From a virus, in IMG/VR virus record IMGVR_UViG_3300032304_002551, positions 1-30,883 of that record: DNA of 30,883 bases; one strand, 5' to 3'. Positions 1,918 through 20,465 of the stretch are shown here, piece by piece. A model generated the notes under the pieces. The model was not told where the DNA came from. It saw only the letters and a list, made by a program, of their open reading frames with translations, and made no database searches. Every line of letters starts with the position of its first letter. Positions within the stretch are counted from its first letter, which is position 1. A program made the translations under genes and the position numbers.

Positions 1918-2763
1918 ATGTCATTAAAAACCGATTTAGAAAAATATAATCCTCGTAAAGACCAAACTAACTGTATTGACTTTATCGATACTGAATACCG
2001 TAAAAATAAAGAAAATAAATTCTTCTTACTTAACTTACCCCCTGGTGTTGGAAAATCTCATCTTTCTCTTATGATTGGTAATTGGTATTTGAAAAATGTC
2101 CATGGTGGTGCTAAAATTGATATAATAACTTCTGGAAAACTATTACAGGATCAATATTCAAAAACATATGAGTCGATTAATGATTTAAAGGGTAAAGAAA
2201 ACTATTCTTGCTCTCAATATGCTTGTTCATGTGCTCAAGGTGCTGAGTTTAACCGTTTAAATAAGACTTCTTGTGAATCTTGTCCTCATTCTGGAGCTCG
2301 TGAGGGTTTTATATCAGGTAAAATATCTTTAACTAACTTTTATCTTTATATACTCTACGCTCTTTATATGCCAAAATCCTTAGAAGTAAGGGGTGCTAAT
2401 GTTTTAATTGTTGATGAGTGTTTGCACCCTGATACTCAAATATTAATGTCTGATGGGATCACTAAAAAAATAAAAGATGTTGATGTTGGGGATAATGTTG
2501 TTACAGTAAATGAAGTTACTGGAGAACTAGAAAATAAACCCGTAGTTAAATTACACAGCAATTTAAATAAAGGCTCTCAAATGTACGAAATTGAAATGGA
2601 TAATGGAGATATTATTAAAATAACAGGCAATCATAAAGTTAAATTATTAAATGGTGATTGGAAGAAAGTGCAAGATTTAGATGGGACAGAGGAAATTTTA
2701 TATATAAATGAAAAATTAGAACTCCATGAATTTGACAATAGAGGAAAAGAACAGTATATATGA
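1918..2763 (+). CDS. XPD/DinG-like Fe-S DNA helicase, N-terminal part, ending in an N-intein
   Basis: Residues 1-167 are the N-terminal half of a superfamily 2 helicase of the Rad3/XPD/DinG group. Walker A is seen as LPPGVGKSHLSL. A Cys cluster (YSCSQYACSC then SCESCP) sits where XPD/DinG proteins carry their 4Fe-4S cluster, followed by LTNFYLY. The sequence reads VLIVDE up to residue 167. Cys168 then starts an intein (CLHPDTQILMSDG). The DECH box is completed only in the C-terminal gene at 3588 (CHEFDD). The two exteins would give about 556 aa, a sensible size. The box TATATAA lies just before the ATG at 1918. The likely role is DNA repair or recombination-type unwinding; exact function is inferred from the family. 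Confidence 0.85.
   Translation: MSLKTDLEKYNPRKDQTNCIDFIDTEYRKNKENKFFLLNLPPGVGKSHLSLMIGNWYLKNVHGGAKIDIITSGKLLQDQYSKTYESINDLKGKENYSCSQYACSCAQGAEFNRLNKTSCESCPHSGAREGFISGKISLTNFYLYILYALYMPKSLEVRGANVLIVDECLHPDTQILMSDGITKKIKDVDVGDNVVTVNEVTGELENKPVVKLHSNLNKGSQMYEIEMDNGDIIKITGNHKVKLLNGDWKKVQDLDGTEEILYINEKLELHEFDNRGKEQYI
2419..2763 (+). other. Split intein, N-fragment (114 aa) in the helicase DECH box
   Basis: Starts with Cys1 (helicase codon 168) and contains block A (CLHPDTQILMSDG, then VDVGDNVVTVN) and block B (GDIIKITGNHKVKLL with the TxxH-type His). It ends at the stop at 2761. This is the canonical split position used by most natural split inteins. The matching C-fragment is at 3588-3692. Confidence 0.85.
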
Positions 2764-3607
2764 TTATTTATCTATGAATAAAGATAAATTCATCTATAAA
2801 AAAGATAGAAAAAGTGGAATATTATCAATGAATGACATTATAAGTGAGTTAATTATGGGTGTTGAATTTAATTCCTTTGAGGAATGTTTTAATATTTTAA
2901 CTGAACATTGGGAGAAAAAATGTAAAAATGACAAGTGTGATAATGATCGAAAGATCATTAGTTTGTTTCCTGACCGACAAGATTTTAATTTGGTTGCAAA
3001 AAAATATGGGATTTTTAAATTTTGCAATAATATTGAATGTAACTATGATTCTATATCAAGAAGACAAACTGGTGAAAATAATACATCACATAGAATGTCT
3101 GAAGAGACATTCAAAATGATGTGTAAGAAAAATTCTATAAAGATGAAGGAGAAAATAAAGAATGGTGAGTTTATTCCTAATATTACAAATAGCTGGGCAA
3201 AGTCAAGGTGTGAGTTATCTTTTATTAGAGGATCAGAGACTATTAATATGAAAACAAGATCAACTTGGGATGCTTACTTTCAATTGTTTAATAAGGAATT
3301 TTTATATGAGAAAATTATTATTCCATATAAACACAATGGTGAGTATCATAATTATATCGTGGATTTTGTTGATGTGTCTAATAAAATTTTATATGAAATT
3401 AAACCAAATTCAACATATAATAATTCAGTCAATATATCTAAATATAAATTTGCCAAAAGATGGTGTAAAATTAATGGGTATAAGTATGTTGTTGTTAAAA
3501 ACAATTGGTTTAAAAAAAATTATAATCCTGATTTATTAATAGGACAACCATCAGAGGAGAAAATGAAGAGAAATTTAAAACAATTTTATGAAAATAAAAA
3601 GCATTAA
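2726..3607 (+). CDS. Homing endonuclease with PD-(D/E)XK-like nuclease domain, inside the split helicase
   Basis: A 293-aa protein in a third reading frame between the helicase halves. The C-terminal third carries a PD-(D/E)XK-like core: RSTWDAYF, YEKIIIPY, the metal-binding Asp in YIVDFVD, then YEIKP as the ExK half-motif. This layout is common in phage-encoded homing nucleases. Upstream RMSEETFKMMCKKNS resembles a NUMOD-type DNA-binding helix. The ORF overlaps the N-intein by 38 bases and the C-intein gene by 20. An internal ATG at 2774, 13 nt after a TATATA box, avoids the first overlap and may be the true start. It would cut intein-less alleles and so spread the whole insertion. Confidence 0.75.
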   Translation: MNLTIEEKNSIYDYLSMNKDKFIYKKDRKSGILSMNDIISELIMGVEFNSFEECFNILTEHWEKKCKNDKCDNDRKIISLFPDRQDFNLVAKKYGIFKFCNNIECNYDSISRRQTGENNTSHRMSEETFKMMCKKNSIKMKEKIKNGEFIPNITNSWAKSRCELSFIRGSETINMKTRSTWDAYFQLFNKEFLYEKIIIPYKHNGEYHNYIVDFVDVSNKILYEIKPNSTYNNSVNISKYKFAKRWCKINGYKYVVVKNNWFKKNYNPDLLIGQPSEEKMKRNLKQFYENKKH

Positions 3608-3692
3608 GAAAATAGATTATAAGGACGATGTTTATAATCTTCATGTGCAGGATAATCATAATTATTTTGCAAATAATCATTGTGTGAGTAAT
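3588..3692 (+). other. Split intein, C-fragment (35 aa)
   Basis: Block F reads DDVYNLHVQDNHNYFANN and block G ends HCVSN, followed by extein +1 Cys. The terminal Asn and +1 Cys needed for the last steps are present. The usual penultimate His is replaced by Ser, with a His four positions before the Asn. Confidence 0.8.
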
Positions 3693-4862
3693 TGTCATGA
3701 GTTCGACGATGTTATGTCAGACTTCATCACAATCAAAATAACAGAAACTCTTGTTAAGAGATTGAAATTTTCAAATGAAGATGAAATCATAAAGAAACTT
3801 AAAAAAGTGACATCAATCACAAGTTATATAGAGTTTTTATCCTATTTACAAGGTGAAGTTGCATCCACAATTGCTGATATTGAAAAATCACTTGGTTCGC
3901 AAAGAAGAAATCCTAAGATGGACAAACGGGATAATAAATTATCTAAACTCTTTGGAACTAAGAATGCTGATACTAAGTTGATGCAAGTCATAACTGACCT
4001 TCTTCAATATCAATCTAAAATTGAAATTTTCTTAAAAGAGTATAAGGATAATCCAAATAATTGGGTTCTTGAATCTAATTATAATGAGAAAACTAAACAA
4101 AAAGAGTTATCATTAGAACCGATTTGGGCTTTTGATTATCTTGATAAGTATGTTTTTTCTAACTATGATATGGTTTTTCTAATGTCTGGAACTATTTTAG
4201 ATAAGAACTTATTTTGTCAATTAAATGGCCTTGATGTAACTAAGGCAGTTTATTATTCGATAGATTCACCTTTTCCGGTTCAAAATCGTCCAATATTTTA
4301 TATGCCTTTGGGTAAGATGTCATATACTAAGAAGGAGGAAACCTTTAAACAATATGTTCCTTATATTCAAAAGATTTTGAATAAATATCCTGATAAGAAA
4401 GGTATAGTTCATACTAATTCTTTTGAATTGGCTTCTTGGTTTAGTCGGGATGTCAAGGATCCTCGATTAGTTTATCATGATTCGTCTAATAAAGATGAAG
4501 TTCTACAAGAACATTTTGGCACTGAAAAACCTACTGTACTTGTCTCCCCTTCGATGGATACGGGGGTTTCATTCGATGATGATAAGGCGAGATTTCAAGT
4601 GATTGCTAAGATTCCTTATCCATCATTAGCTTCACAAAAGAATAAATTAAGGCAGAAGAATAATCCTGAATGGTATTTTTGGAAAACGGTTTCGGGTTTG
4701 ATTCAAATGACTGGAAGAGCGGTTCGTAGTAATCAAGATTTTGCTGACACGATTATTATTGATGGTTCTTTTTCTGACCTTTTAAGACATTCAGGACACT
4801 TATTTCCTCATTGGTTTCAAGAGGCGATTAAGAAAGTCGAAATTAAGCAAAAAGTTAAATAG
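3588..4862 (+). CDS. C-intein plus C-terminal part of the XPD/DinG-like helicase
   Basis: Residues 1-35 are a C-intein. Cys36 onward resumes the helicase with CHEFDDVMSD, completing DECH. Later helicase motifs follow in order: VFLMSGTILDKNLF (SATL-like motif), KKGIVHTNSFELASWF, VSPSMDTGVSF (motif V region) and GLIQMTGRAVRS (motif VI with the arginine finger). This gives 389 extein residues. The gene overlaps the endonuclease by 20 nt. It ends at a strong bidirectional terminator. On its own this fragment lacks Walker A and the Fe-S domain, so function requires trans-splicing or association with the 1918 product. Confidence 0.85.
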   Translation: MKIKSIKKIDYKDDVYNLHVQDNHNYFANNHCVSNCHEFDDVMSDFITIKITETLVKRLKFSNEDEIIKKLKKVTSITSYIEFLSYLQGEVASTIADIEKSLGSQRRNPKMDKRDNKLSKLFGTKNADTKLMQVITDLLQYQSKIEIFLKEYKDNPNNWVLESNYNEKTKQKELSLEPIWAFDYLDKYVFSNYDMVFLMSGTILDKNLFCQLNGLDVTKAVYYSIDSPFPVQNRPIFYMPLGKMSYTKKEETFKQYVPYIQKILNKYPDKKGIVHTNSFELASWFSRDVKDPRLVYHDSSNKDEVLQEHFGTEKPTVLVSPSMDTGVSFDDDKARFQVIAKIPYPSLASQKNKLRQKNNPEWYFWKTVSGLIQMTGRAVRSNQDFADTIIIDGSFSDLLRHSGHLFPHWFQEAIKKVEIKQKVK

Positions 4863-5439: not shown

Positions 5440-6453
5440 ATGATGAAAATTAAAAATTATTTTCAATTTCTTTTAGAAAATCAAAAAGAATCAGAGCTAA
5501 CTGTACCTTTACAATTCAGTAAAAGGTTCTTAGATGTTTTAGGTAATCCTGGATTTGGTATTATCTCACCGATTAAAGACGCTTTTATAGATCTTAGATT
5601 GACACCTCAACAACTTTCTTTAGTTGATATTGGTAAGGAACCTGATACAGCTACTTTTACAACTGTTCAGAAGTTATCTACACATTTCAAAACAACTGAC
5701 CAATCTATGTTAAATACTTTAATCAAACCACTAACTCGCGAAGATGCTCTTGTTTATCACATAAACAGAGTTGAAATAAGAATTGGTAGATTAATTAAAA
5801 AACTTTTTCACGATACATTTAGTGATGTCGAAATAGAAAAATTTGTTAATCAGTATAAGTCAATTTTAGACCAAACTGCATTAGATTTTGAATTGTGGAG
5901 AGGTGTTGATATTGGAAGAGGATATGTTTCCTCTAATTATACTTTTACTGGATCAAGTTCAAATGCACTTATGAATTCTTGTATGAATGATTGTACAGAC
6001 TGGATTGATTTTTATATGGGTTGTCCAGTACAATTACTTGTTCTATTAAATGAAGAAGGACACATTTTTGGTCGGGCTCTTATTTGGGAGATAGGGAAAG
6101 GAAAATTTTTGATGGATAGAGTTTATGTTTCTTTTGACAGAGATTATTTTAAATTCATTGATTATGCTAAGTCAAATGGATGGTGGTGGAAAGCTGAGAA
6201 TAAATCAGGAGCATCTATTCCTTATACAAATGGTAAAGTGACCGATTGGTTTCCAGTTGAAATAAAATTAAATTTTGATTTTGATGAATATAAGGATTGG
6301 GGAATACCTTATTTAGATACATTTTCATATTGTCAGGAGGATAAATTGACAAATTATATACCAAAAGATGGTACTTATTACATTTTAACATCAACTGATG
6401 GTGTGTATGATACTAATAATGTGAAAAGTGTAGATTTTGAAGAGATAAATTAA
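5440..6453 (+). CDS. Conserved phage-type protein of unknown function (SCM...RALIW type)
   Basis: 337 aa from the ATG at 5440; 5443 is equally possible. The frame is open back to a GTG at 5413, but the TATATA box and the leader MKIKNYFQFLLENQ favour the later start. Notable segments are ELWRGVDIGRGY, SSSNALMNSCMNDCTDW, VQLLVLLNEEGHIFGRALIW and FLMDRVYV. Together they look like a compact domain with conserved Cys, Arg and Trp residues. I have the impression of similar proteins in other large phages but no known activity. The leader groups it with other possible capsid-targeted proteins in this window. It is followed at 11 nt by a membrane protein gene. Confidence 0.65.
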   Translation: MMKIKNYFQFLLENQKESELTVPLQFSKRFLDVLGNPGFGIISPIKDAFIDLRLTPQQLSLVDIGKEPDTATFTTVQKLSTHFKTTDQSMLNTLIKPLTREDALVYHINRVEIRIGRLIKKLFHDTFSDVEIEKFVNQYKSILDQTALDFELWRGVDIGRGYVSSNYTFTGSSSNALMNSCMNDCTDWIDFYMGCPVQLLVLLNEEGHIFGRALIWEIGKGKFLMDRVYVSFDRDYFKFIDYAKSNGWWWKAENKSGASIPYTNGKVTDWFPVEIKLNFDFDEYKDWGIPYLDTFSYCQEDKLTNYIPKDGTYYILTSTDGVYDTNNVKSVDFEEIN

Positions 6454-6459
6454 TATATA
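6451..6459 (+). promoter_or_regulatory. TAATATATA box overlapping a stop codon
   Basis: TAATATATA begins with the TAA stop of the preceding gene and ends 4 nt before the ATG at 6464. Confidence 0.35.
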
Positions 6460-6463
6460 GTGT

Positions 6464-7276
6464 ATGTCAAAGATTTTAAGGTATAAAGATTATAGTCTAT
6501 CAGAAGAAAGGGCACTTGAGTTAATTCAAAATATATGTAATCCTCAAATGAATGAATCTAAATTAGGAGATGATTTTAAATCAATTGCTTCGAAGTTATC
6601 TAAAGATATAAAATTTAATTTTGTACTTATTGCTACTTTTGGTACCGGAATTAAATTAATGTTGCCAGTTGTGAATAGTTTTATTAAAAATGGAACATTC
6701 AACTTTGAATTAAATCAGGAAAATCTAATACTTTTGACAATAACCATAGTTGCTATTTTTTATTTAGAGGAAACTGCAAATAAAGCGGGAGATGAGTTAA
6801 ATGCTGATGGTGAAAAGAGTATAGTAACTAAGAAAGACGCACAAACTTTGTTAGAAGAGCTAAAGATGAGAGGTATAGGACAGGGAATAGTAAAGAAATT
6901 TGTTGCAGCTTTTGGTTCGATTAGTAAATTTTTCAAGATGTTGTTCCGTGGAACTCCTTATGTTATCAATGGTCTTTTAGATATGTTTGGATATGCTTCA
7001 CTTATGGTTCCATGCATGAATGCACTTTCATCTTTCATTGGAAAGTATGATATGACTATTGAGACTATTTCGACCAACTTACTAAGTCTGGGAGTTGGAG
7101 TAGGTGCTCTTTTAGCTAAACAAGGAGTTTCTTGGTTAGTAAAAAGTATTAGTAAAGGATTAGGTATAAAGAAGTTAGGAAAAGATTTAGAAAAACCGAT
7201 AGAGGTGAGGCCTTTTGATATCATTGATGTTGAGACAGATAATCTAGAAAGAACGAAGTTAATTAAAGAGCAATAA
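6464..7276 (+). CDS. Predicted membrane protein of unknown function
   Basis: 270 aa with the leader MSKILRYKDYSLSEE and about four hydrophobic segments: FNFVLIATFGTGIKLMLPVV, NLILLTITIVAIFYL, FGYASLMVPCMNALSSFI and LLSLGVGVGALLAKQGVSWL. Between the second and third is a charged helix (KKDAQTLLEELKMRG). The C-terminus is hydrophilic and acidic. The aromatic leader resembles those of the neighbouring gene at 5440 and others, so virion association is possible. A role in the host inner membrane fits the topology equally well. No family is recognised. Confidence 0.65.
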   Translation: MSKILRYKDYSLSEERALELIQNICNPQMNESKLGDDFKSIASKLSKDIKFNFVLIATFGTGIKLMLPVVNSFIKNGTFNFELNQENLILLTITIVAIFYLEETANKAGDELNADGEKSIVTKKDAQTLLEELKMRGIGQGIVKKFVAAFGSISKFFKMLFRGTPYVINGLLDMFGYASLMVPCMNALSSFIGKYDMTIETISTNLLSLGVGVGALLAKQGVSWLVKSISKGLGIKKLGKDLEKPIEVRPFDIIDVETDNLERTKLIKEQ

Positions 7277-7327
7277 GTGTTTAAATGTAGTAATTTTAAT
7301 TAAACAAGATTATCAATAAAATGTATA

Positions 7328-8062
7328 ATGACTATGATAAATAGTTCACTTGAAAAAGTATTTTTCAATTACATATTAAATAATAGAAAATTTTTTGAAT
7401 TAGTAAAGCCTTATTTCTTTAGAAACTCTGAAATTCAGTTTGTTTATGGTGTTATACGAGAATACATGATAAAAAAAACTGGTGCTAAAGCACCAAGTCC
7501 AAAACAAATCTTAGATATGATTGCTTTAGAAGATAAAGAAGGTATCATTACTAAAGAAATTCTAAAATCAATTTTACAGGTTAATTTAGCTGAATACGAT
7601 GAAAAGAATTTTATCGAACCTAAATTCAATGCTTGGGTTTTGACTAATCGGTTGAAAACTGGAACGGTAGATATTATTGACGAAACAAGAAATTTTGATT
7701 CTATCTCTGATTTTGAGAAAGCTATCGAAGCTGCTGAAAGAATTAGAGGAATAGTAGATGAAATGTCATCGACTAATTTTGTTGATGATGATGATATTGG
7801 TTCTGACTTTGATGATCCTGAGCATCACTTACAAGATACATCTAAATTTAAAGTTAAATCAGGATTTGAAACCGTTGACCATATGCTTGGTGGTGGTTGG
7901 GATATACAAACTTTGAATTGTATTATGGCTGAGACCAATAATGGAAAATGTACTTTTTTTACAACCAAATTAGATATTAGAAGTGTCAGATCTAATAAAA
8001 TTTTCAATATTGAAATTGGTGGTATTTTTACCAAAATTAGTAAGGGGGATTACAATATTTAA
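7328..8062 (+). CDS. T4 gp41-like replicative DNA helicase, N-terminal part, ending in an N-intein
   Basis: Residues 1-207 are the N-terminal domain and linker of a DnaB-family (SF4) helicase of the T4 gp41 type, up to the P-loop: GFETVDHMLGGGWDIQ, then IMAETNNGK. The Walker A continues only in the gene at 9282 (SLWMQNFAVKSADMG). Cys208 starts a short intein fragment that ends at the TAA at 8060. Joined exteins give about 445 aa, close to T4 gp41 (475 aa). The protein would form the hexameric replication-fork helicase. The start may be 7328 or ATG 7334; an eight-codon ORF at 7321 overlaps it. Without splicing this fragment lacks a complete nucleotide-binding site. Confidence 0.85.
   Translation: MTMINSSLEKVFFNYILNNRKFFELVKPYFFRNSEIQFVYGVIREYMIKKTGAKAPSPKQILDMIALEDKEGIITKEILKSILQVNLAEYDEKNFIEPKFNAWVLTNRLKTGTVDIIDETRNFDSISDFEKAIEAAERIRGIVDEMSSTNFVDDDDIGSDFDDPEHHLQDTSKFKVKSGFETVDHMLGGGWDIQTLNCIMAETNNGKCTFFTTKLDIRSVRSNKIFNIEIGGIFTKISKGDYNI
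7949..8062 (+). other. Atypically split intein, short N-fragment (37 aa) in Walker A of gp41
   Basis: Only block A-like sequence is present (CTFFTTKLDIRS, then KIFNIEIGGIFTKI) before the stop. The Block B-like sequence is on the C-fragment. This resembles atypically split inteins such as AceL-TerL, which has a roughly 25-aa N-part. Cys1 is present directly after the Walker A Lys. Confidence 0.8.
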
Positions 8063-8068
8063 TATATA
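8060..8068 (+). promoter_or_regulatory. TAATATATA box at the HEG start, also supplying the stop codon
   Basis: The first three bases are the stop of the N-intein ORF. The following leader to the ATG at 8084 is closely similar to the leader of the HNH gene at 19656. Confidence 0.4.
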
Positions 8069-8083
8069 AAAATAAAATGTTGT

Positions 8084-9289
8084 ATGAACGCTGATGCTAA
8101 AAAAAGATATAAAGATATTGAGTTTCCATTCACTTGTCCAATTTCTAATAGAACTTTTGAAACCTCACAAGGATTATCTTGTTATGTAACCAAAACTTTA
8201 AAAATTAATCATGAGGTATATTATGATATTTATATAAATCATAGAGATAGTTCTTGCTTTTTTTGTGGAAGAAAAGGTAAGTTCATTTCTATATCAAAAG
8301 GATATAGAAATTTGTGTGAGAATAAAGATTGTGTTAAAAAGTCATTCAATTCTCATAGTGTTGAGGGTTTTATGTATAGGAATATGTGTTCCAAAGAAGA
8401 AGCAGAAATACTTTTTAAATTAGAAAATGAAAGACAATTAAATGAAAGGTTGAAAACTCAACGTGAATTAAGAAAAGTAGATCCACTTTGGGATAAAAAA
8501 AGGAGTAGAAATTGTAAAGAATTTTGGATTAACAAGGGATATACTGAAGAAGAAGCTATTTTAAAGTCAAAAGAAGTTATGAATGAGGTACATTCAAAAA
8601 CATCTATTAAATTAAAGTCTAATCCTGAAAAGTATGCTTGTAAATATCCGACAAAAATTGAATATTATTTAAAAAAAGGATTTAATGAAGAAGAAGCAAA
8701 AGAAGAAATATCTAAAATTCAAAATAGGTTCTCATTAGAAAAATGTATTGAAAAATATGGCAAGATAGTGGGTGAGAAGACATTTAATGAAAGACAATAT
8801 AAGTGGATCAATACTTTGAATTCTAAGACGGATGAAGAAAGAATAGAAATCAACCGAAAAAAGATAACAGGTTGTTCATATTCGCCGATATCACAAAGAT
8901 TGTTTTGGGAGATCTACAATATTGTTGGTAATGATAAAGTTAAATTTGCCGAACTAAAAAGTAAGTTTCACTTATTGAATGAAAATAAAGAGTGGTTCGC
9001 TTATGACTATGTTGATATGTTAAGAAAAAAATGTATTGAGTTTAATGGTGATTTCTGGCATTGCAATCCCACCTTGTTTAAGGCGGATGATGTTCATAGG
9101 ATTAAGAAAAAGAGAGCTGAGCAAATTTGGAAAAATGATTATGAAAAAATATCTTTTATTGAAAAAAAAGGATACCAAGTACTCACAATATGGGAATCTG
9201 AATATAGAAAAAATCCACAACAAACTTTAGAAAAATGTATAAAATTTATCAATGAAGAAGAAAAAATTAATAATATTTTAAATGATTGA
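8084..9289 (+). CDS. Homing endonuclease, Vsr-like (EDxHD-type), inside the split gp41 gene
   Basis: 401 aa. The N-terminus has Cys pairs typical of a zinc-binding fold (FTCPISNRTF, SSCFFCGRKG, NLCENKDC). The middle carries repeats of the type FWINKGYTEEEAILKSKE and EYYLKKGFNEEEAKEEI, probably DNA-binding. The C-terminal nuclease has WFAYDYVDMLRKKCIEFNGD, then FWHCNP and KNDYEKISFIEKKGYQVLTI with WESE. This matches the very-short-patch-repair-like fold of the family first described with fractured phage genes and split inteins. It overlaps the C-terminal helicase gene by 8 nt (9282-9289) and has its own TAATATATA box. It would promote spread of the intein plus HEG into gp41 alleles lacking them. 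Confidence 0.8.
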   Translation: MNADAKKRYKDIEFPFTCPISNRTFETSQGLSCYVTKTLKINHEVYYDIYINHRDSSCFFCGRKGKFISISKGYRNLCENKDCVKKSFNSHSVEGFMYRNMCSKEEAEILFKLENERQLNERLKTQRELRKVDPLWDKKRSRNCKEFWINKGYTEEEAILKSKEVMNEVHSKTSIKLKSNPEKYACKYPTKIEYYLKKGFNEEEAKEEISKIQNRFSLEKCIEKYGKIVGEKTFNERQYKWINTLNSKTDEERIEINRKKITGCSYSPISQRLFWEIYNIVGNDKVKFAELKSKFHLLNENKEWFAYDYVDMLRKKCIEFNGDFWHCNPTLFKADDVHRIKKKRAEQIWKNDYEKISFIEKKGYQVLTIWESEYRKNPQQTLEKCIKFINEEEKINNILND

Positions 9290-9725
9290 AAATTATGAAA
9301 TAATAGAAGCAGATTCCTTATTAGAGGGTAAATACGATATGCCTTTATATGATAAATTTATTGAAGCATATGAGGTAAATGACTTACAAGTTTTTACTCC
9401 AAATGGCTGGGTTGATATTGAAGGTATTGGCAAAACCGTTGAATATGATGAATGGAGAATACTAACTTCTGGTGGTAATGAATTAATATGTGCTGATAAA
9501 CATCTTTTATATAGATGTGATAATATGGACTTTAATAATAAGAAGTGTGATCTAACTGAAATTTACTGTGAAAATATACATCTTGGTGACTTTATAATGA
9601 CAAAAAAAGGTCCAGAAATGATAGTTGAATTTGGACTGACTGGCAAAAAATCACATATGTATGATTTACAATTATCAGAAGGATCTAATAAACAATATTA
9701 TACTAGTGATATATTAAGTCACAAT
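9282..9725 (+). other. Atypically split intein, long C-fragment (148 aa)
   Basis: Carries a middle region (NDLQVFTPNGWVDIEGIG), a block B-like segment (GGNELICADKHLLYRC), block F (SHMYDLQLSEG) and block G (ILSHN) with penultimate His, terminal Asn and extein +1 Ser. The Ser is also the Walker A Ser/Thr. Confidence 0.85.
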
Positions 9726-10442
9726 TCACTTTGGATGCAAAACTTTGCTGTTAAATCGGCAGATATGGGTTCAAATGTTCTTTACATTACTTTAGAGATG
9801 TCGGAAAGAAAAGTAATGAAGAGATTAGGATCAATGCGTTTGAAGATACCTATCAATGATTATGATAAACAAAGTAAGGATACTGAGTTTATTAGAAAAA
9901 GAATTGATAATATGGGTTCTTTGAAAGAAGGTGGTGATTTATTTCAAAAATCAGTTGGTAAGATATTTACAAAATTCTGGGCAGCTGGTACAGCTACAAT
10001 ATTAGATTTTGATAATTATATACAAAAACTACAACAAAGAAGAGGTGTAAAAATCGATTTAATCATTGTAGATTATATTACTTTGGTAGCTTCACCAAAG
10101 GGCGCTAATGATTCTCTTTACACAAAAGGTAAACATTTAGCAGAAGGTTTAAGAGCACTTGGTGCTAAATATAAGTGTCCGGTAATAACAGGAGTTCAAG
10201 TAGCTAAAGATGCTTGGAATTCGAGTGATATTACATTAGAAAGTGTTCCAGAAAGTAAAGCAATCGCAGAGACCGCAGACACTTTTTGGGCAATTATAAG
10301 AACAGAAGAAATGAAACGGTTAAATATGTATCGATTCAAATTACTCAAGCAAAGGGATGGTGACTTTTTGAAAAGTCAGATTAAACTTACATTAAATTCA
10401 ACCTTTCTGACTTTAGAAAATGACCAATTTATAGATGCTTAG
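9282..10442 (+). CDS. C-intein plus C-terminal part of the gp41-like helicase
   Basis: Residues 1-148 are a long C-intein. Ser149 starts the extein with SLWMQNFAVKSADMG, the rest of Walker A and its helix. Then come VLYITLEMSERKVMKRLG (motif H1a region), IDLIIVDYITLVASP (Walker B), EGLRALGAKYKCPVI, TGVQVAKDAW (motif H3 Gln) and ESKAIAETADTFWAIIR, ending FKLLKQRDGDFLKS (arginine finger region). All are collinear with T4 gp41. The extein part is 238 aa. The 3' end overlaps the convergent HEG at 10429 by 14 bases. Confidence 0.85.
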   Translation: MIENYEIIEADSLLEGKYDMPLYDKFIEAYEVNDLQVFTPNGWVDIEGIGKTVEYDEWRILTSGGNELICADKHLLYRCDNMDFNNKKCDLTEIYCENIHLGDFIMTKKGPEMIVEFGLTGKKSHMYDLQLSEGSNKQYYTSDILSHNSLWMQNFAVKSADMGSNVLYITLEMSERKVMKRLGSMRLKIPINDYDKQSKDTEFIRKRIDNMGSLKEGGDLFQKSVGKIFTKFWAAGTATILDFDNYIQKLQQRRGVKIDLIIVDYITLVASPKGANDSLYTKGKHLAEGLRALGAKYKCPVITGVQVAKDAWNSSDITLESVPESKAIAETADTFWAIIRTEEMKRLNMYRFKLLKQRDGDFLKSQIKLTLNSTFLTLENDQFIDA

Positions 10443-11268
10443 AAAGCATATAATCAATATCATCTTTATAGGATATTCTGAGTAATTTAATTTCATTTTT
10501 CAAACAAAACTCATTTTTTATTGCATCTTTTATTTGAGTTTTTTTAAATTCTTCTTCACCACCAAATGCTTTGACTGCTTTAAAATGTTGAATTCCATCA
10601 AATTCTATAAGTAAATTATAGTCAATGAGATAAAAATCAAATGGCAATTCATTCACAAACTTACACTCTTTGAATTTCTTTTGTCTAATAAATTTTAAGT
10701 TTTTTTCTTCTAAAATATTTCTGATTTTTCTCTCACCTAACGATTCTCTACAAATTGGACAACCCTTACCTTGAAGGTGGTTAGATACTATTTGATAAAA
10801 TTGATGGTCCTCTTTACAAGTGATTTTAATTTTAGTGTGTAAATTTTTATAGTCAGTTAATTCGTATGTGTAATAATTTCCGTGTATTTTATCTAACTTT
10901 TGAATTAGAATATCCTTGGTTATGTTTCTTTTGTTTTTTCTACACTCTTCACATTTTCTACCGGATAGTAAATTTCTTCTATCTTGAAAGTATTCGTGTC
11001 CATTTTTGCACTTTATTTTTAACTTCATACCATCTATCGATATTAGTTTTACTATACCAGTGCTTAATAAATCTGATTTTTCGAGGAGTTCACAATAAGA
11101 GCATTTGAAGTTTGTATATGATAGGTTTCTATAATTATTAGTTATTTCGTAACTACATCTCTTACATCTACAAACTATTTTCTTGTGGTCAATATAATTA
11201 ATAATAGTTAGGTTATTACATTCTATTTTTTTAATTCTGTCTGTTATAACTTTTTCTAATGATTTCAT
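10429..11268 (-). CDS. Free-standing homing endonuclease-like protein: zinc ribbons plus Vsr/PD-(D/E)XK-like nuclease
   Basis: 279 aa. Repeated CxxC knuckles come first (VCRCKRCSYE, CSYC, CEEC, CPIC), separated by segments such as KIKCKNGHEYFQDRRNLLSG, as in treble-clef/zinc-ribbon DNA-binding arrays. The nuclease domain follows: SLGERKIRNILEE, KKFKECKFVNELPFDFYL, LLIEFDGIQHFKAVKAFGG and FCLKNEIKLLRISY. The same domain is found in the truncated gene at 30470. It is convergent with gp41 and overlaps its 3' end by 14 bases. It has its own box (TAATATATA on the minus strand at 11273-11281). It probably acts on a nearby target to spread itself; no intron or intein is associated. Confidence 0.75.
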   Translation of the reverse strand: MKSLEKVITDRIKKIECNNLTIINYIDHKKIVCRCKRCSYEITNNYRNLSYTNFKCSYCELLEKSDLLSTGIVKLISIDGMKLKIKCKNGHEYFQDRRNLLSGRKCEECRKNKRNITKDILIQKLDKIHGNYYTYELTDYKNLHTKIKITCKEDHQFYQIVSNHLQGKGCPICRESLGERKIRNILEEKNLKFIRQKKFKECKFVNELPFDFYLIDYNLLIEFDGIQHFKAVKAFGGEEEFKKTQIKDAIKNEFCLKNEIKLLRISYKDDIDYMLSKHL

Positions 11269-11272
11269 ATAA

Positions 11273-11281
11273 TATATATTA
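11273..11281 (-). promoter_or_regulatory. TAATATATA box for the minus-strand HEG
   Basis: On the minus strand, TAATATATA ends 4 nt before the ATG at 11268. This is the same spacing as at 14686 and 6464. Confidence 0.35.
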
Positions 11282-11301
11282 AAAATTAACTACTCGTAAG
11301 A

Positions 11302-11320
11302 TAAAAGTGATACACTTTTA
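11302..11320 (+). other. Small perfect hairpin in the 5' region of the 11340 gene
   Basis: TAAAAGTG and CACTTTTA pair around an ATA loop, 19 nt before the ATG. There is no T-run on either strand, so it is not a terminator. It could be a leader structure. Confidence 0.4.
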
Positions 11321-11339
11321 GAAAAAATAAAAAACATGA

Positions 11340-12263
11340 ATGTCAAAGAAAAAACAATTTGATGAAGAATCAGAGGATGACTTTTTAGAAAATGAATCCG
11401 AAAATTTAGATGATTATAAACTTGAGGAAGAAACTACTGAAATAAATGATGAGATTGTAGTTGTTCCGGATGATGAAGATAACATAGATATTGTTATTGA
11501 AGTATCTGAAGAAGAATTAACTGGTGAAGAATCTACTGAAGAGGTTGATGATGTGGTCCTTTCTAAACATAAGATACAAGGTAAACACTCTCTAAAATAT
11601 GATTCAATCTTTAAAGGGAAAAAAGAAGATGTAAGTGAGGAGGAAGACGTTAGTACATATTATTATAATGATAAATTTGAGGTTGATAGAGGTAGTGTAT
11701 TTTATTCAGAATCTTATGATAATGAATCTTATCTTAGACTCAAAAGAGTTAAAGAGAGAGTTTATGAGGTACTTTCTACAAAAACTTCTCTTAATTTCTT
11801 GAATAACAGAAGAAAACCTTCGCGTGTAGATTTTAATAATTATTACTTATTACTTACGGTTGAATTAAATTTTGAGAAATTCACTAATGTTGAGTTATTC
11901 AATGAATTATCTGTTTATTTTTCTGATAACTTATTCAATATGTTTAAGTTACTGGATAATAAATGGAGGAATCTAATAATTTTAGAGTTACAAGACCATA
12001 TTGGTAAAAATAATTCTTCTAAAGAAATAACTAATCGTAATATTTATCTTGGAACGGAGTTAGAGTTTGAACATCAGGATATACTCGGTGAAGTTAAATT
12101 ATTCACAGGAGTTGTTGTAGAAACGGATTATAATAATTCAATTTTTAAGATTGATTCTTATGAGAATGTGTATGAGATTCATATTTCATCCATTACCAAG
12201 ATACTCAACAACACCAAATTTAAACATAATCTAAATAAATTAGACAACATCGATTTTCTCTAA
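11340..12263 (+). CDS. Acidic N-terminus protein of unknown function
   Basis: 307 aa. Residues 1 to about 110 are a low-complexity acidic region rich in Glu and Asp (DDEDNIDIVIEVSEEELTG). The remainder is a folded-looking domain with many aromatic and hydrophobic positions (NNYYLLLTVELNFEKF, WRNLIILELQDHIG, LGTELEFEHQDILG) and a beta-rich end (FTGVVVETDYNNSIFKI). No motif identifies it. It lies between the gp41 and RNR blocks, so a link to replication is possible but unsupported. The A-rich leader has no Shine-Dalgarno sequence. Confidence 0.65.
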   Translation: MSKKKQFDEESEDDFLENESENLDDYKLEEETTEINDEIVVVPDDEDNIDIVIEVSEEELTGEESTEEVDDVVLSKHKIQGKHSLKYDSIFKGKKEDVSEEEDVSTYYYNDKFEVDRGSVFYSESYDNESYLRLKRVKERVYEVLSTKTSLNFLNNRRKPSRVDFNNYYLLLTVELNFEKFTNVELFNELSVYFSDNLFNMFKLLDNKWRNLIILELQDHIGKNNSSKEITNRNIYLGTELEFEHQDILGEVKLFTGVVVETDYNNSIFKIDSYENVYEIHISSITKILNNTKFKHNLNKLDNIDFL

Positions 12264-12301
12264 AAAAACCAAAATACGGGAAAATTATTAAATATGTCTT
12301 C

Positions 12302-12310
12302 AATATATAA
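12302..12310 (+). promoter_or_regulatory. AATATATAA box upstream of nrdA
   Basis: The box lies about 30 nt before the ATG at 12340, a spacing compatible with a real leader, in contrast to the boxes lying 4-5 nt before an ATG. Confidence 0.35.
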
Positions 12311-12339
12311 AAACTCATTAAGAAAAAAATAAACAATTT

Positions 12340-14652
12340 ATGGAGGAAACCTTTTTAAAAGAAACAAAAAAAACCAAATCAAATAGTCTTAGTGTCACTA
12401 AGCGTAACGGAGTTGGAGAAGAATTCAACGCTGAGAAAATAAATAAAGTTCTGATTTGGGCCACAAGTGGAATAAGTGGAGTATCAGCTTCTGATGTAGC
12501 CATGAATTCTCATATTCAATTTTACCCTGGAATCAAAACATCGGAAATTCATAAAGTTTTGATTCAATCAGCGGTAGATCTGATTTCAGAAAAAACACCC
12601 AATTATCAGTATGTTGCCTCAAACCTACTTAATTATCTTCTTCGTAAAGAAGTATTTGAAACTAAAGTTGAAATGCCAACTTTACTAGAAGTTATCAAAA
12701 GAAACATTAAGTTGGACTTATATGATAAGATTATCTTAGATAACTATACAGAATTAGAATTAGAAAAGGTTAATTCATACATTAAACATGATAGAGACTA
12801 TCAATTGACTTATGCTGGTCTTCAACAATTGATTGATAAATATTTAGTTAAAGATAGAAGTACGGGTAAGTCATATGAAACTCCACAATTCTGTTTTATG
12901 ATGATTGCTCTTACCGTTTTTGCTTCTTATGATAAGGAAACTAGAATGGATTACATCAAAGAACTTTATGATCTAATTTCCGAACATAAGATTTCGCTTC
13001 CAACTCCAATTATGGCTGGTATTAGAACTCCAAATCGTCAGTTTTCCAGTTGTACTCTAATTGAGATTGGGGATTCATTAGATTCAATTTTCTATGGTAA
13101 CGTGGCTATTGGTCAATATGTTGCTAAGAGGGCTGGTATCGGTATTAATGCTGGGAGTATTAGAGCTCTTGGGTCTAAGGTTAGGAATGGTGAAGTTGTT
13201 CATACTGGTGTTATTCCTTTTTTAAAGATGTTTCAATCTACTTTACATTCTTGTTCACAAGGAGGTATTAGAAAAGGTTCAGCCACTCTTTATTTTCCTT
13301 GGTGGCATAAAGAGATTGAAGATGTTCTAGTTCTTAAAAATAATAAGGGTACTGATGATAATCGAGTAAGACACATGGATTATGGAATTCAATTTGAGAA
13401 AACATTCTATAACCGATTTGTTTCTAATGGTGAGATTTCACTTTTTTCTCCATCAGATGTTCCAGGTCTTTATGACGTTTTTGGCCTTCCTCAATTTGAG
13501 GAAGTGTATTTGAAATGTGAATCTGATAAGAAAATACCAAGAAAGACAATTAAAGCGCGTGATTTAATGAATGCTTTTGCTCAGGAAAGAATCGGAACGG
13601 GTCGTATGTATGTTATGAATATTGATAATGTTAATAATAATTCACCTTTTATCGGTAGAGTTAAAATGTCTAACCTCTGTGTTGAAATTTGCTTGAAAAC
13701 TTCACCAATAGAATCAATTTATGATGTGGATAATAAAAAAGAAACCGAACATTTATCAAATGGTGAAATCGCTCTTTGTACTTTGGCAGCATTTAATTTA
13801 GGCAATATTAAATCTTGGAATGAACTCTACAAAGTCGCTGAATATATTGTTAGGATTCTTGATTATGTAATTGAGAACCAGGATTATCCGATTAACGCGG
13901 CTAAGAAAATGTTAAAACGTAGAAGTATTGGTGTTGGTGTGACTAATTTTGCTTATTGGTTAGCTAAACAAGGTATTAAATACTCTGATAAAGAAGCTCT
14001 TTTCTATGTAGATGAGTTGTTTGAACACATTCAGTTCTCGTTATTGAAGGCTTCTAATAAATTGGCTAAAGAGTTTGGTAAGTGTGAATGGTTTGATGAT
14101 ACTACTTATTCAAAAGGTGTTCTTCCAGTTGATAGGTATAACAAAAATGTTGATGAATTAATTAAGAGAGATTATTCTTGTGACTGGGAATCTTTAAGAA
14201 AAGATATTGAGGAGTTTGGTTTGAGAAATTCAGTTCTAACAGCTTTGATGCCGGCAGAGAGTTCTGCCGTAGTTCAAAACGCGACGAATGGAATCGAGCC
14301 AATTCGATCTCTTGTGATTACTAAAAAATCAAAATCAGGTTTGGTTAAACAAGTAGCTCCTGAATGTATTAAATTGAAGAATAAATATGAATTAGCTTTT
14401 GATATGCCGGATAATCGTGGATATACAAATATTTGTGCTGTTATTCAAAAATGGATTGACCAATCCATCTCTGCTAATCATTATTACCAATATTCTTCAG
14501 AAGGTATTTCAATTGGTGGTGTTATTAAAGATATTCTATATTCGTATAAGTATGGTTTGAAAACACTTTATTACGCTAATACTGATGATAAAAAATCTGA
14601 TGATTTAGATACAATGGGGAATGGTTGTGAATCTGGATCCTGCACATTGTGA
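12340..14652 (+). CDS. nrdA: Class Ia ribonucleoside-diphosphate reductase, alpha subunit
   Basis: 770 aa, matching the usual NrdA length (about 760). It makes dNDPs from NDPs with NrdB. An ATP-cone-like start (SVTKRNGVGEEFNAEKINKV) may bind allosteric nucleotides. Redox Cys238 lies in RQFSSCTLIEIGDS. The active-site loop is SNLCVEICL with Asn, Cys447 (thiyl radical) and Glu. The partner Cys480 lies in IALCTLAAFNLG. PAESSAVVQNATNGIEP is the phosphate-binding region. The C-terminus ends CESGSC, the flexible Cys pair reduced by thioredoxin or glutaredoxin. The gene is intact, with no intein or intron. An HEG separates it from nrdB. Confidence 0.95.
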   Translation: MEETFLKETKKTKSNSLSVTKRNGVGEEFNAEKINKVLIWATSGISGVSASDVAMNSHIQFYPGIKTSEIHKVLIQSAVDLISEKTPNYQYVASNLLNYLLRKEVFETKVEMPTLLEVIKRNIKLDLYDKIILDNYTELELEKVNSYIKHDRDYQLTYAGLQQLIDKYLVKDRSTGKSYETPQFCFMMIALTVFASYDKETRMDYIKELYDLISEHKISLPTPIMAGIRTPNRQFSSCTLIEIGDSLDSIFYGNVAIGQYVAKRAGIGINAGSIRALGSKVRNGEVVHTGVIPFLKMFQSTLHSCSQGGIRKGSATLYFPWWHKEIEDVLVLKNNKGTDDNRVRHMDYGIQFEKTFYNRFVSNGEISLFSPSDVPGLYDVFGLPQFEEVYLKCESDKKIPRKTIKARDLMNAFAQERIGTGRMYVMNIDNVNNNSPFIGRVKMSNLCVEICLKTSPIESIYDVDNKKETEHLSNGEIALCTLAAFNLGNIKSWNELYKVAEYIVRILDYVIENQDYPINAAKKMLKRRSIGVGVTNFAYWLAKQGIKYSDKEALFYVDELFEHIQFSLLKASNKLAKEFGKCEWFDDTTYSKGVLPVDRYNKNVDELIKRDYSCDWESLRKDIEEFGLRNSVLTALMPAESSAVVQNATNGIEPIRSLVITKKSKSGLVKQVAPECIKLKNKYELAFDMPDNRGYTNICAVIQKWIDQSISANHYYQYSSEGISIGGVIKDILYSYKYGLKTLYYANTDDKKSDDLDTMGNGCESGSCTL

Positions 14653-14672
14653 TATAGGGACTTGTTGTTGTT

Positions 14673-14681
14673 TAATATATA
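14673..14681 (+). promoter_or_regulatory. TAATATATA box before the nrdA-nrdB HEG
   Basis: The box ends 4 nt before the ATG at 14686, with about 20 nt between it and the nrdA stop. Confidence 0.35.
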
Positions 14682-14685
14682 ATTA

Positions 14686-15900
14686 ATGATATTAAACAAT
14701 ATAGTAGTAAATTCTAGAAAAAATTTACTTAGATTAGTAAAAAAAATCGATATTCAAACTTTAGAAGATATAGATGACGATTTTGAAAAGTGGTTTGAAT
14801 TAAAAATAACAGATAGTGGTAAGATATTAATTCTTAATATAATAAAAGTATATAAGAGTAATAGAATACTATCTATCTGTTTATTTTTTAAAACAAATAA
14901 TATTCTTGATTTTTCGGAAGAAAGATTTAAAAAATATATGAATTATATTGAACTTCATCCTAAAGATAAAGTATCCAAAGATTATTATAAACTTAGATAT
15001 GGGAAAGAATATGAAATTTACTACAATAATAGGATTAAAAATGGAGCTCTAAGCAAGGAAAAATTCATTAGTAAGTATGGTGATATTAATGGTATTGTAC
15101 GGTATGATTTGTGGAAAGAATCACAAAAAAAATCATCAAAGAGAACAATTGGATATTGGTTAAATATTTATGAAAATTTAGATGTGGCAAAGAAAAAATT
15201 AAAAGAATATCAATCCAATCACACTAAGAAACATTTAAGTGGAAAATCAGAAGAATATATAAAAGAGTATAATCAAAAGAACTCACCGTGGAGAGTTGAA
15301 TATTATGTTAATAGGGGTCATAGTGAAAAGGAAGCTAAAGAGATTATATCTAAAATAAAAAAGGAGTCTTCTATGTTTTGTTCAGAATATTATCAAAAAT
15401 TAGGACATTCACTTGAGGAATCTAGCAATTTAAGCTATGAATATTGGAAAGACCATTGTTATAAAAATAATTCTAATGTTTCTAAAGAATCATTGAAAAT
15501 ATTTTCAGTTATTCACGAAAGAATAAAAGATTTTACTAATATGTGTGTTTATTATGGTGACACCAATATTGGTAAAAAAGAATACTTCTTATATGATAAG
15601 GTTGAGAAGAGATATTATTTTTATGACTTTGTAATATTAAAGGATGATTTAAAATTTATAATAGAATATAATGGTTCTAAATTTCACCCAAGAAAGGATA
15701 GTTTAACAGAAGAGGAGTGGAAAAACTGGAGGTGTCTATTTAATGAGGATGTTGATGCTGATACTAAGTATAAATATGATTGTTTAAAGAGAGATTTGGC
15801 TTTGAAAAATGGATTTAAATATTTGGAAATTTGGTCTGATGATGATTTCGATCATAATATACAAAAATCAATTGATTTTATTAAAAATTTAAACATTTAA
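14686..15900 (+). CDS. Free-standing homing endonuclease, Vsr-like (EDxHD-type), between nrdA and nrdB
   Basis: 404 aa, clearly related to the HEG at 8084. It has the same repeat type (EYYVNRGHSEKEAKEIISKI, YYQKLGHSLEESSNLSYE). The same nuclease layout follows: YYFYDFVILKDDLKFIIEYNG, SKFHPR, then KYKYDCLKRDLALKNGFKYL and EIWSDDDF. There are few Cys residues at its N-terminus, so the zinc-binding part of the 8084 protein is absent or replaced by a different N-terminal domain. The nrdA-nrdB spacer is also a HEG site in T4-like phages (for example mobE). Both flanking genes are intact. A 17-bp tandem repeat follows, just before nrdB. Confidence 0.75.
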   Translation: MILNNIVVNSRKNLLRLVKKIDIQTLEDIDDDFEKWFELKITDSGKILILNIIKVYKSNRILSICLFFKTNNILDFSEERFKKYMNYIELHPKDKVSKDYYKLRYGKEYEIYYNNRIKNGALSKEKFISKYGDINGIVRYDLWKESQKKSSKRTIGYWLNIYENLDVAKKKLKEYQSNHTKKHLSGKSEEYIKEYNQKNSPWRVEYYVNRGHSEKEAKEIISKIKKESSMFCSEYYQKLGHSLEESSNLSYEYWKDHCYKNNSNVSKESLKIFSVIHERIKDFTNMCVYYGDTNIGKKEYFLYDKVEKRYYFYDFVILKDDLKFIIEYNGSKFHPRKDSLTEEEWKNWRCLFNEDVDADTKYKYDCLKRDLALKNGFKYLEIWSDDDFDHNIQKSIDFIKNLNI

Positions 15901-19161: not shown

Positions 19162-19632
19162 ATGTCACGTTTCAATCAAACTATCCAAAAAGGAAAAACC
19201 AAAACCGTAAATTATGCTGGTGGTGAAGCATACAAACAATCTAAAGAGTTAGAATTAGTTTCTATTCTCTTAACATCATTCGTGAGTGATACATTCTATC
19301 GTTCATCTAGTGATACATTAGATAGATTAAAGGCACTTCTTTCTGAAGTTGATCCTAAATTCGCAGCTAAGGCGGCTATTTTTGCTCGTGATAAATTCGG
19401 TATGAGAAGTATTACACATGCTCTTGCTGGTGAGCTTGGGAAGTACCTATCAGGTGAGGAATATGCAAAGAATTTTTATGAGAAAGTTGTTGTTAGGCCA
19501 GATGATATGACAGAAGTTTTAGCATATTATACACAAAATTGTGGAGAAAAGATTCCTAATTCAATGAAAAAAGGATTCGCAAAGGCTTTTGATAAATTTG
19601 ATAATTATCAATTGGCAAAGTGGAAAAATTAA
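19162..19632 (+). CDS. Ro60-like TROVE-domain protein, N-terminal fragment
   Basis: 156 aa matching the first part of a TROVE (Telomerase, Ro, Vault) domain. Segments are VNYAGGEAYKQSKELELVSI, FYRSSSDTLDRLKALLSEVD, KAAIFARDKFGMRSITHALA and FYEKVVVRPDDMTEVLAYY, ending KFDNYQLAKWK plus one Asn before TAA. In Ro proteins the helical repeat continues directly with a K-rich stretch and VDVVNLVHP; here that is in the next fragment at 20434. The TROVE ring binds Y RNAs and the 3' ends of misfolded RNAs. The stop codon is the TAA of the HNH gene's TAATATATA box. With no intein or intron remnants visible, the protein is probably made in two pieces. Confidence 0.8.
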   Translation: MSRFNQTIQKGKTKTVNYAGGEAYKQSKELELVSILLTSFVSDTFYRSSSDTLDRLKALLSEVDPKFAAKAAIFARDKFGMRSITHALAGELGKYLSGEEYAKNFYEKVVVRPDDMTEVLAYYTQNCGEKIPNSMKKGFAKAFDKFDNYQLAKWKN

Positions 19633-19638
19633 TATATA
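19630..19638 (+). promoter_or_regulatory. TAATATATA box of the HNH gene, supplying the Ro60 stop codon
   Basis: The TAA ends the N-terminal Ro60 fragment. The box and leader up to the ATG at 19656 closely match 8060-8084. Confidence 0.4.
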
Positions 19639-19655
19639 CAATAAAAAAATTGTGT

Positions 19656-20465
19656 ATGGAAAGGGATTACTTAATAAAATTGTATTATGAAGAAAATAAA
19701 ACACCTACAGAAATTGAAAAAATAACAGGATTGTCATTTTTTTATTATATGAAAAAGTATGACTTGAAATTAAAACCCACTTTTAATATTTCTATTGAGG
19801 AATTAAAAAAATTGTATTATGATGATAAATTGTCATATTCACAAATAGAAAAAAAATTAAAATTAAAAAGAGGAAGAATATATAGCTGGTTTAAGAAATA
19901 TGAAATTGAGCCAAGAAATCAATCTTCTTGTATGGAAGGAAGGAAATTTAGTGAGGAACATAAAGAAAAAATAGCTAAGTCAAATTCTAAACCACATACA
20001 GAAGAACGATGTATAAATATATCAAAATCTAAAAAAGGAAAAACTATAATAAGTGAGGAACATAAAGAAAAAATAAGGCAAAAGTTTATAGGTCTTAGAG
20101 TTGGTGATAAGCACCCTATGTGGAAAGGAGGACTTTCTATGATTAGAAATAGATTGCGACAAACCTATGAATATAAAAATTGGAGGAATTTAGTTTATAA
20201 GAGAGATGAGTTTATTTGTCAGATTTGTGGATCAATTGGTGGGAAATTAAACTGTCATCATATTGAAATGTTTAGCGATATTGTTAAGGAATATGAATTA
20301 AAGGAATATGATGATTATATAAATTGTGATAAATTATGGGATTTAAATAATGGAATAACATTATGTAAAAATTGTCATATATCGATAAAAGGAAAAGAAA
20401 AAGAATTAGAGCAAAATTTTAAAAAAATAATAAATGAAAATTATGAAAAAAACAAAATTATTTAA
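19656..20465 (+). CDS. HNH homing endonuclease interrupting the Ro60-like gene
   Basis: 269 aa from the ATG at 19656. The frame opens at a TTG at 19620, but the box and leader favour 19656. Order of domains: two helix-turn-helix-like repeats (ELKKLYYDDKLSYSQIEKKL then RIYSWFKKYEIEPRN), two NUMOD3 motifs (GRKFSEEHKEKIAKS, ISEEHKEKIRQ), and an HNH nuclease (WRNLVYKRDEFICQICG, KLNCHHIEMF, LWDLNNGITLCKNCH) with the zinc Cys pairs and catalytic His. The gene fills essentially the whole gap between the Ro60 fragments and overlaps the start of the second by 23-32 bases. It would cut Ro60 alleles lacking it. Confidence 0.85.
   Translation: MERDYLIKLYYEENKTPTEIEKITGLSFFYYMKKYDLKLKPTFNISIEELKKLYYDDKLSYSQIEKKLKLKRGRIYSWFKKYEIEPRNQSSCMEGRKFSEEHKEKIAKSNSKPHTEERCINISKSKKGKTIISEEHKEKIRQKFIGLRVGDKHPMWKGGLSMIRNRLRQTYEYKNWRNLVYKRDEFICQICGSIGGKLNCHHIEMFSDIVKEYELKEYDDYINCDKLWDLNNGITLCKNCHISIKGKEKELEQNFKKIINENYEKNKII

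Follow-up and report, generated by a model that had tools for sequence, protein, structure and literature searches.

How does a phage come to encode its replicative helicase in two genes, with the break falling inside the Walker A motif? The question is raised by a locus in the window, as we call the whole stretch of 30,883 nucleotides analysed here, i.e., positions 1 to 30,883 of the IMG/VR virus record IMGVR_UViG_3300032304_002551, whose source is an uncultured phage with relatives among contigs of 80-480 kb. Two separate genes make up the helicase there, one ending in the N-terminal part of an intein and the other beginning with the complementary C-terminal part. The interruption is very probably a naturally and atypically split class 1 intein at the P-loop of a T4-gp41-like (DnaB-family) helicase, forming a mobile trans-splicing homing cassette.

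The N-half open reading frame (ORF; 7328-8062) reads AETNNGK, then from 7949 CTFFTTKLDIRSVRSNKIFNIEIGGIFTKISKGDYNI (37 amino acids, aa) and a stop, and the C-half ORF (9282-10442) opens with a C-intein of 148 aa that ends DILSHN at 9725 and is followed by SLWMQN, the +1 Ser codon at 9726-9728 being that of the Walker A Ser. The original prediction, made by a model from the letters alone, had given these ORFs and junctions, the 37- and 148-aa intein parts and a block B-like region on the C side (GGNELICADKH), and the window's ORF list with translations agrees with it to the base. An endonuclease ORF inside the same interval, its last 8 bases shared with the beginning of the C-half, had gone unmentioned. 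The locus is laid out as follows.

7328-7948, plus strand: N-extein of the gp41-type replicative helicase, 207 aa, ending in AETNNGK of Walker A (phrog_19 DnaB-like replicative helicase, E 2.2e-12)
7949-8059, plus strand: N-intein, 37 aa, Cys1 codon at 7949, stop at 8060-8062 (Cys1 in register with a TerL Walker A intein)
8060-8069, plus strand: TAATATATAA element, overlapping the N-intein stop and just 5' of the endonuclease gene (four in the window against 0.64 expected)
8084-9289, plus strand: free-standing homing endonuclease of the EDxHD/Vsr type, 401 aa, with N-terminal zinc-finger-like motifs
9282-9725, plus strand: C-intein, 148 aa, with block B-like GGNELICADKH, block F MYDLQL...YYT and block G ILSHN
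9726-10442, plus strand: C-extein of the gp41 helicase, 238 aa, stop included (DnaB_C, E 2.7e-14; phrog_19, E 1.4e-42)

A scan of viral contigs yielded 67 loci, and the helicase set among them was sorted by whether the GKS of Walker A was occupied or empty. Uninterrupted GKS was found in 43 relatives, among them L014, which places the insertion exactly at the boundary of the Lys and Ser codons of Walker A, as had been predicted; the gp41 N-extein region likewise runs on uninterrupted in L014-L018 and others. From the empty alleles and the DnaB_C match, the position between Lys and Ser/Thr of Walker A in a DnaB-family helicase is the P-loop one (DnaB site b). The empty allele of L014 is 99.5% identical to the window over 5475-7956 and 98.5% over 9723-10444, carries an intact AETNNGKSLWMQN at Walker A and reads AATAATGGTAAATCACTTTGG at the window's insertion point, a near-identity that speaks for recent gain or precise loss of the intein. 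Because L014 differs from the window by one single-nucleotide polymorphism within 400 base pairs (bp) to the left of the site and by none within 377 bp to the right, a long co-conversion tract from a diverged donor was rejected.

An assembly chimera of two phage populations joined at gp41 had to be considered, as an occupied allele (L001) and an empty one (L015, 93%) coexist in one metagenome, 3300037189. Nevertheless, contig L001 spans 7392-15212 of the window at 99.97%, and an equal architecture, with both halves, recurs in other samples, on 13 more contigs that are all distinct; the split gp41 arrangement is neither chance nor assembly error, and we give a chimera practically no credence.

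That the inserted parts are those of an intein is indicated first by their residues: Cys1, block-B His74, His147, Asn148 and Ser+1 are invariant in all members, which completes the class 1 catalytic set, and the invariance of Cys1 argues against a class 3 mechanism such as that of DnaBi1. The N-intein is 32-40 aa long and has an open frame in all 14 distinct alleles. The C-intein alone has CatC (6dsl_B), an engineered consensus sequence for atypically split inteins, as its best PDB sequence match (E 3.5e-5, or 5.9e-7 as a profile), and seven of the ten C-inteins scanned match Pfam Intein_splicing (PF14890; best E 5.7e-4), although direct hmmscan of the window's two halves returned no Hint or intein family and PF14890 emerged only upon scanning homologues. 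In a joint model of homologue L007 (predicted local distance difference test score 77.6, with 95 and 88 for the N-intein blocks and low values for the linker), the N-intein is folded as strand-strand-helix, with helix 23-32 at its end. Foldseek of this model against the PDB returned the VidaL intein (6vgv) first (E 2.5e-8) and then many inteins, and a second aligner gave Z 14-18 to many inteins over residues 3-207, the matches including VidaL, Cat and RadA inteins. As inteins are matched across residues 3-207, both fragments would take part in one HINT fold, and the N and C fragments are thus predicted to form a HINT domain jointly. Two alignments in which N and C fragments were mixed had misplaced the N parts and were excluded from the model.

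Several points weigh against reading the locus as a working split intein. The model is that of a homologue, with two TAA codons read through to give one chain, and was built on 16 aligned sequences. Taken by itself, the N-intein matches nothing significantly in the PDB or Pfam, and its profile found nothing in the PDB. Block B reads ADKH in place of TxxH, this phage may have a further intact helicase elsewhere in its genome, and trans-splicing in the cell is something that we infer. The original prediction had looked to an intein profile match for the N-intein, and this was obtained in part, with the profile aligning Cys1 to Cys1 of the TerL Walker A intein at E 0.015, which is weak when taken alone.

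Phage endonucleases are often found in group I introns, and introns are commonly sited at conserved catalytic codons. The interruption might thus act at the level of RNA, as an intron or as trans-spliced exons; yet Rfam had no match in the window and both flanks continue in frame into HINT-fold sequence with the catalytic residues of an intein, so that an RNA-level explanation is extremely improbable. Readthrough between the two intein ORFs was also rejected: in four endonuclease-free loci the halves share one frame, but 2-5 in-frame stops, often of different kinds, separate them.

With a split intein as the preferred explanation, the helicase halves would be made as two separate proteins, and the 37-aa N-intein, contributing two strands and the first helix, would dock onto the 148-aa C-intein to complete the HINT fold. 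Trans-splicing would then follow, catalysed by Cys1, the His residues of block B and the penultimate position, the terminal Asn and Ser+1; AETNNGK would be joined to SLWMQN and Walker A would be restored, the helicase presumably having no ATPase activity before that step. The endonuclease encoded at 8084-9289 would cleave empty gp41 alleles, and its position between the halves would make the whole a homing cassette spreading into them, with some lineages having dropped the endonuclease and retained the split.

The layout of 37 and 148 aa is not the canonical one (Npu DnaE and gp41-1, with N-inteins, or IntN, of about 100 aa and C-inteins, or IntC, of about 35-40 aa), and, with block B on IntC, it fits the short-IntN, long-IntC definition of an atypical split, the IntN of natural atypically split inteins being 15-37 aa (PMC13014065). 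The proposed likeness to AceL-TerL gained support from the CatC and TerL-intein matches, from the HINT model and from an IntN equal in length to that of GOS-TerL, 37 aa (PMC11766414). AceL-TerL, GOS-TerL and Cat all have a short IntN (25, 37 and 30 aa) and a break after the first helix, a position known in AceL-TerL and GOS-TerL as the S2 site (PMC13014065). Unlike the gp41 intein (Cys1/Ser+1), however, AceL-TerL (Cys1/Cys+1) and GOS-TerL (Ser1/Cys+1) sit in TerL, and the IntC of all three is 104-115 aa long as against 148 aa, the gp41 C-intein having an N-terminal extension of ~20 aa that is common to most members. The VidaL intein, which we take to be VidaL T4Lh-1 in a T4-like helicase, is also atypically split and Cys-dependent; the L007 model matched its fold at Z 16.1 and 27% identity, and the sequence profile reached only E 0.1. 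It differs in having an IntN of 16 aa, broken after strand 2 at the S1 site (PMC13014065).

Mycobacterium smegmatis DnaBi1 (DnaB site b) occupies the corresponding site of a homologous helicase, where the P-loop Ser likewise serves as +1 residue (PMC6195587), so that the use of the Walker A Ser as Ser+1 is not new; it is, however, contiguous and class 3, whereas the gp41 intein is split and, by its residues, class 1. In the fractured genes of gp41-1, gp41-8, NrdJ-1 and IMPDH-1, a free-standing EDxHD-type endonuclease lies between intein-bearing gene halves, as it does here, but the break is canonical, with an IntN of about 90-120 aa and an IntC of about 35-40 aa; the gp41-1 intein gave both a fold match and a weak sequence match to the gp41 split intein. 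Dassa et al. in 2009 reportedly described the EDxHD endonuclease family together with split inteins. The combination of a helicase P-loop, an S2 split and an endonuclease cassette is, as far as we found, undescribed in the literature, although VidaL may be closer.

EDxHD is a recognised family of homing endonucleases (PMC3943268). Across eight homologues of the endonuclease, D308, E319, D323, H326 and D352 are invariant, and Cys pairs lie near the N-terminus; its model matches Vsr (1cw0) and I-Bth0305I (3r3p) with a Foldseek probability of 1.00 but an E of 0.02-0.07, and by sequence the match to Vsr reached only E 0.1. The protein is predicted to have a Vsr-like fold with an E, D, H, D signature. 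The TAATATATAA element stands at the equivalent place in L002, L005, L008, L009 and L011 and could, at a weak possibility, be a phage late promoter. Elsewhere in the window, at 14673-15900, it precedes another EDxHD-like ORF (14686-15900) located between ribonucleotide reductase genes, and TAATATATAA may be a late promoter of free-standing endonucleases. A zinc-ribbon and Vsr/DUF559-like endonuclease ORF at 10429-11268, on the minus strand, is a second insertion adjoining gp41. The stretch 10445-11237 is missing from L014, and identity, which had been 98.5%, is down to 86% past 11238, as though this nuclease marked a recombination boundary.

The split intein, with both halves, is present in 14 distinct gp41 genes of viral contigs (the window, L002, L003, L005, L007-L012, L085, L088, L089 and L091), L012 having been missed in the automatic sorting for the tree and counted by inspection, and the window and L001 forming two tree rows; a search of bacterial and archaeal genome contigs found no relative. 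On a helicase tree of 53 rows (14 split, 39 empty), the presence of the intein requires at least nine changes, whether gains or losses, eight of which are forced by well-supported branches. The distances of exteins and C-inteins are uncorrelated inside the main clade (Mantel r 0.17, p 0.22), as is expected if the intein moves, and are correlated across all members because of the distant L085-L091 group. Patchy presence and uncoupled distances form, on comparison of the sequences, the pattern of a mobile element. The endonuclease gene is found in at least eight members (the window, L002, L005, L008, L009, L011, L085 and L089) and is absent from at least five (L003, L007, L010, L012 and L088); the gap of L003 retains 43 bp of its 3' end (88% identity, E 4e-11), evidence that the endonuclease was lost there and the split kept. 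In L006 (966-1520), a gp41 N-half has an internal deletion of ~58 aa just before the P-loop (...GIVDEINGK/C, a slash here and below marking an intein junction) with the intein halves intact, which may be an assembly error or a decayed allele.

The original prediction also suggested that the intein, beyond its selfish spread, gates the helicase, with replication proceeding only after splicing. There is chemistry in favour of this, as Ser+1 is the Walker A Ser and Cys1 makes redox control possible, and there is precedent: P-loop inteins block ATPase in RadA, and DnaBi1 has been argued to do likewise, with splicing that responds to oxidation (PMC6195587). However, the empty alleles of the 43 close relatives imply that no such control is generally needed, and the patchy distribution and the homing endonuclease are in keeping with a selfish element, so that we consider gating unlikely.

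The closest relatives of the gp41 intein are the TerL (terminase large subunit) Walker A inteins of phages, which are contiguous in the Ackermannviridae. This sister family was recognised when Salmonella phage matches of the first protein search, helicase look-alikes, proved actually to be TerL; a C-intein search of named phages gave 306 records, and among the matches listed with a functional name nearly all are terminase large subunit. Kuttervirus PM10 TerL has a contiguous intein in Walker A, RQSGK/CVKGDTLVTVYDTLSQEELLLTIGELHSRFEDVN...SHN/TTVV, to which the C-intein profile aligns at 39% identity (hhalign Prob 99.4, E 1.2e-21), and Vibrio phage SD25 has CVDHDTMINIRHKVTGEIKNISIGDFHHMKE at the corresponding TerL position. 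The TerL inteins of T4-like phages are homologous to the gp41 intein and share its P-loop position (GK/C...HN/T) and block order, but their host protein is a terminase rather than a helicase and most are contiguous; that of Agrobacterium phage Atu_ph07 is split likewise (gp110/gp109) and has Ser1. As the contiguous TerL inteins continue through the point where the gp41 intein is broken, their register puts the gp41 break after the first helix (alpha1), at the S2 site.

Further inteins of this kind occur in the same genomes. TerL is split at MASRQ(V/I)GK/C...HN/T in the contigs of L009, L010, L003 and L007, two of which have an EDxHD-type endonuclease separating the halves, and the L021 contig has a gp46/Rad50-like ATPase broken at GNNGNGK/S...HN/SSFLSSF; one TerL C-intein is 27-44% identical to gp41 and gp46 C-inteins. 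Scored with a three-kind profile, homologous inteins outside gp41 were found in five of six independent split-gp41 records as against one of 13 empty-gp41 records (one-sided Fisher p about 0.003), a count in which near-duplicate records were merged, short matches to the C-terminal end only were left out, and records may be incomplete. Three phage ATPases have a selfish element in their ATP site. Few natural atypically split inteins are known, five having been usable in a 2025 comparison (PMC11923092); to these the family contributes 14 distinct gp41 cases, several TerL cases and one gp46-like case, and it comes with relatives that are contiguous, alleles that are empty and alleles that lack the endonuclease. 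Its 32-40 aa N-inteins are on offer for chemical protein synthesis.

Where the split TerL inteins are broken, both fragments are extended by long helix-like stretches. In those of L104, L105, L106, L107 and L094, long, amphipathic-looking helices flank the break, e.g., SKERKLTILEKIKIKLYDYLYRLENL and MIKSVLIRIIKFLITFIERVEL; these are absent from contiguous relatives and are possibly added association domains. Campylobacter phage CP21 (L092:2485-4930) has a TerL with a contiguous intein at RQ/C...HN/SSKST and, further on, a second N-intein, CLENTRVQVRNKYTNKIETLTIKELYARLQELKKS and then a stop, that closes the ORF; CP21_126 and CP21_127 come next. This second intein, in a phage that has been isolated, is likely to be atypically split as well. 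In Salicola phage SCTP-2 (L093:2992-3885), ORF 267 begins with a TerL C-intein of the Walker A type and its end resembles the N-part of another intein; the N-half of TerL was not found.

Selection has left different marks on the parts of the gp41 locus. For pairs of split gp41 inteins, the ratio of nonsynonymous to synonymous differences (pN/pS) is about 0.2 (0.1-0.4) in the exteins and C-intein, which are under purifying selection, and mostly 0.65-1.4 in the N-intein. The latter range is what decaying sequence might give, and, together with a block B that lacks the usual Thr and splicing deduced rather than observed, it could be taken to mean that the gene is simply broken, its fragments being the decaying, non-splicing remains of an endonuclease insertion. 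Against such decay stand the constraint on exteins and C-intein, the catalytic residues that no member has lost, the open N-intein frame kept throughout the 14 alleles and the fact that no second helicase match was seen in the records of 11 relatives, all of them possibly incomplete; a broken gene is very unlikely.

The N-intein is the fast-evolving part of the locus. Where C-inteins are 70-80% identical, split N-inteins average 30% identity (26 pairs) and the equivalent stretch of contiguous TerL inteins 72% (20 pairs), in a comparison whose pairs are non-independent, whose stretch is short and whose control is drawn from a different gene in different phages; in the contiguous TerL inteins, pN/pS is 0.29 for the N-stretch and 0.23 for the C-part. 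Split N-inteins thus appear to diverge about three times faster than C-inteins, unlike their contiguous relatives. Relaxed constraint explains this most simply, and selection for pairing specificity is possible because there are several homologous split inteins per genome. With two per genome (gp41 and TerL, or gp41 and the gp46/Rad50-like ATPase), cross-splicing would give chimeric enzymes, which would select for mutually exclusive pairs. We tentatively entertain, while thinking it rather doubtful, a broader proposal in which the gp41 intein belongs to a family of homologous inteins, all atypically split, that have specialised on phage ATPases at their Walker A codons (GK/S or GK/T), with short N-inteins and break helices selected to diverge into orthogonal pairs. 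Several ATPases of one genome bearing such inteins, and a fast N-intein, are likewise undescribed as far as we found, and the family offers a natural experiment in the origin of split inteins, the loss of endonucleases and the avoidance of cross-talk.

Two other genes of the window are, or seem to be, interrupted. A second fractured gene, at 1918-4862, encodes a helicase-like ATPase with a canonically split intein: its N-half ends LIVDE/CLHPDTQ with an N-intein of about 108 aa, a 293-aa ORF (2726-3607) lies between the halves, and a C-intein of about 35 aa, at the start of the C-half, runs to CVSN/CHEFDD. At 19162-21414, a Ro/TROVE-like gene with no Rfam intron match is seemingly interrupted by an HNH-type ORF (19620-20465).

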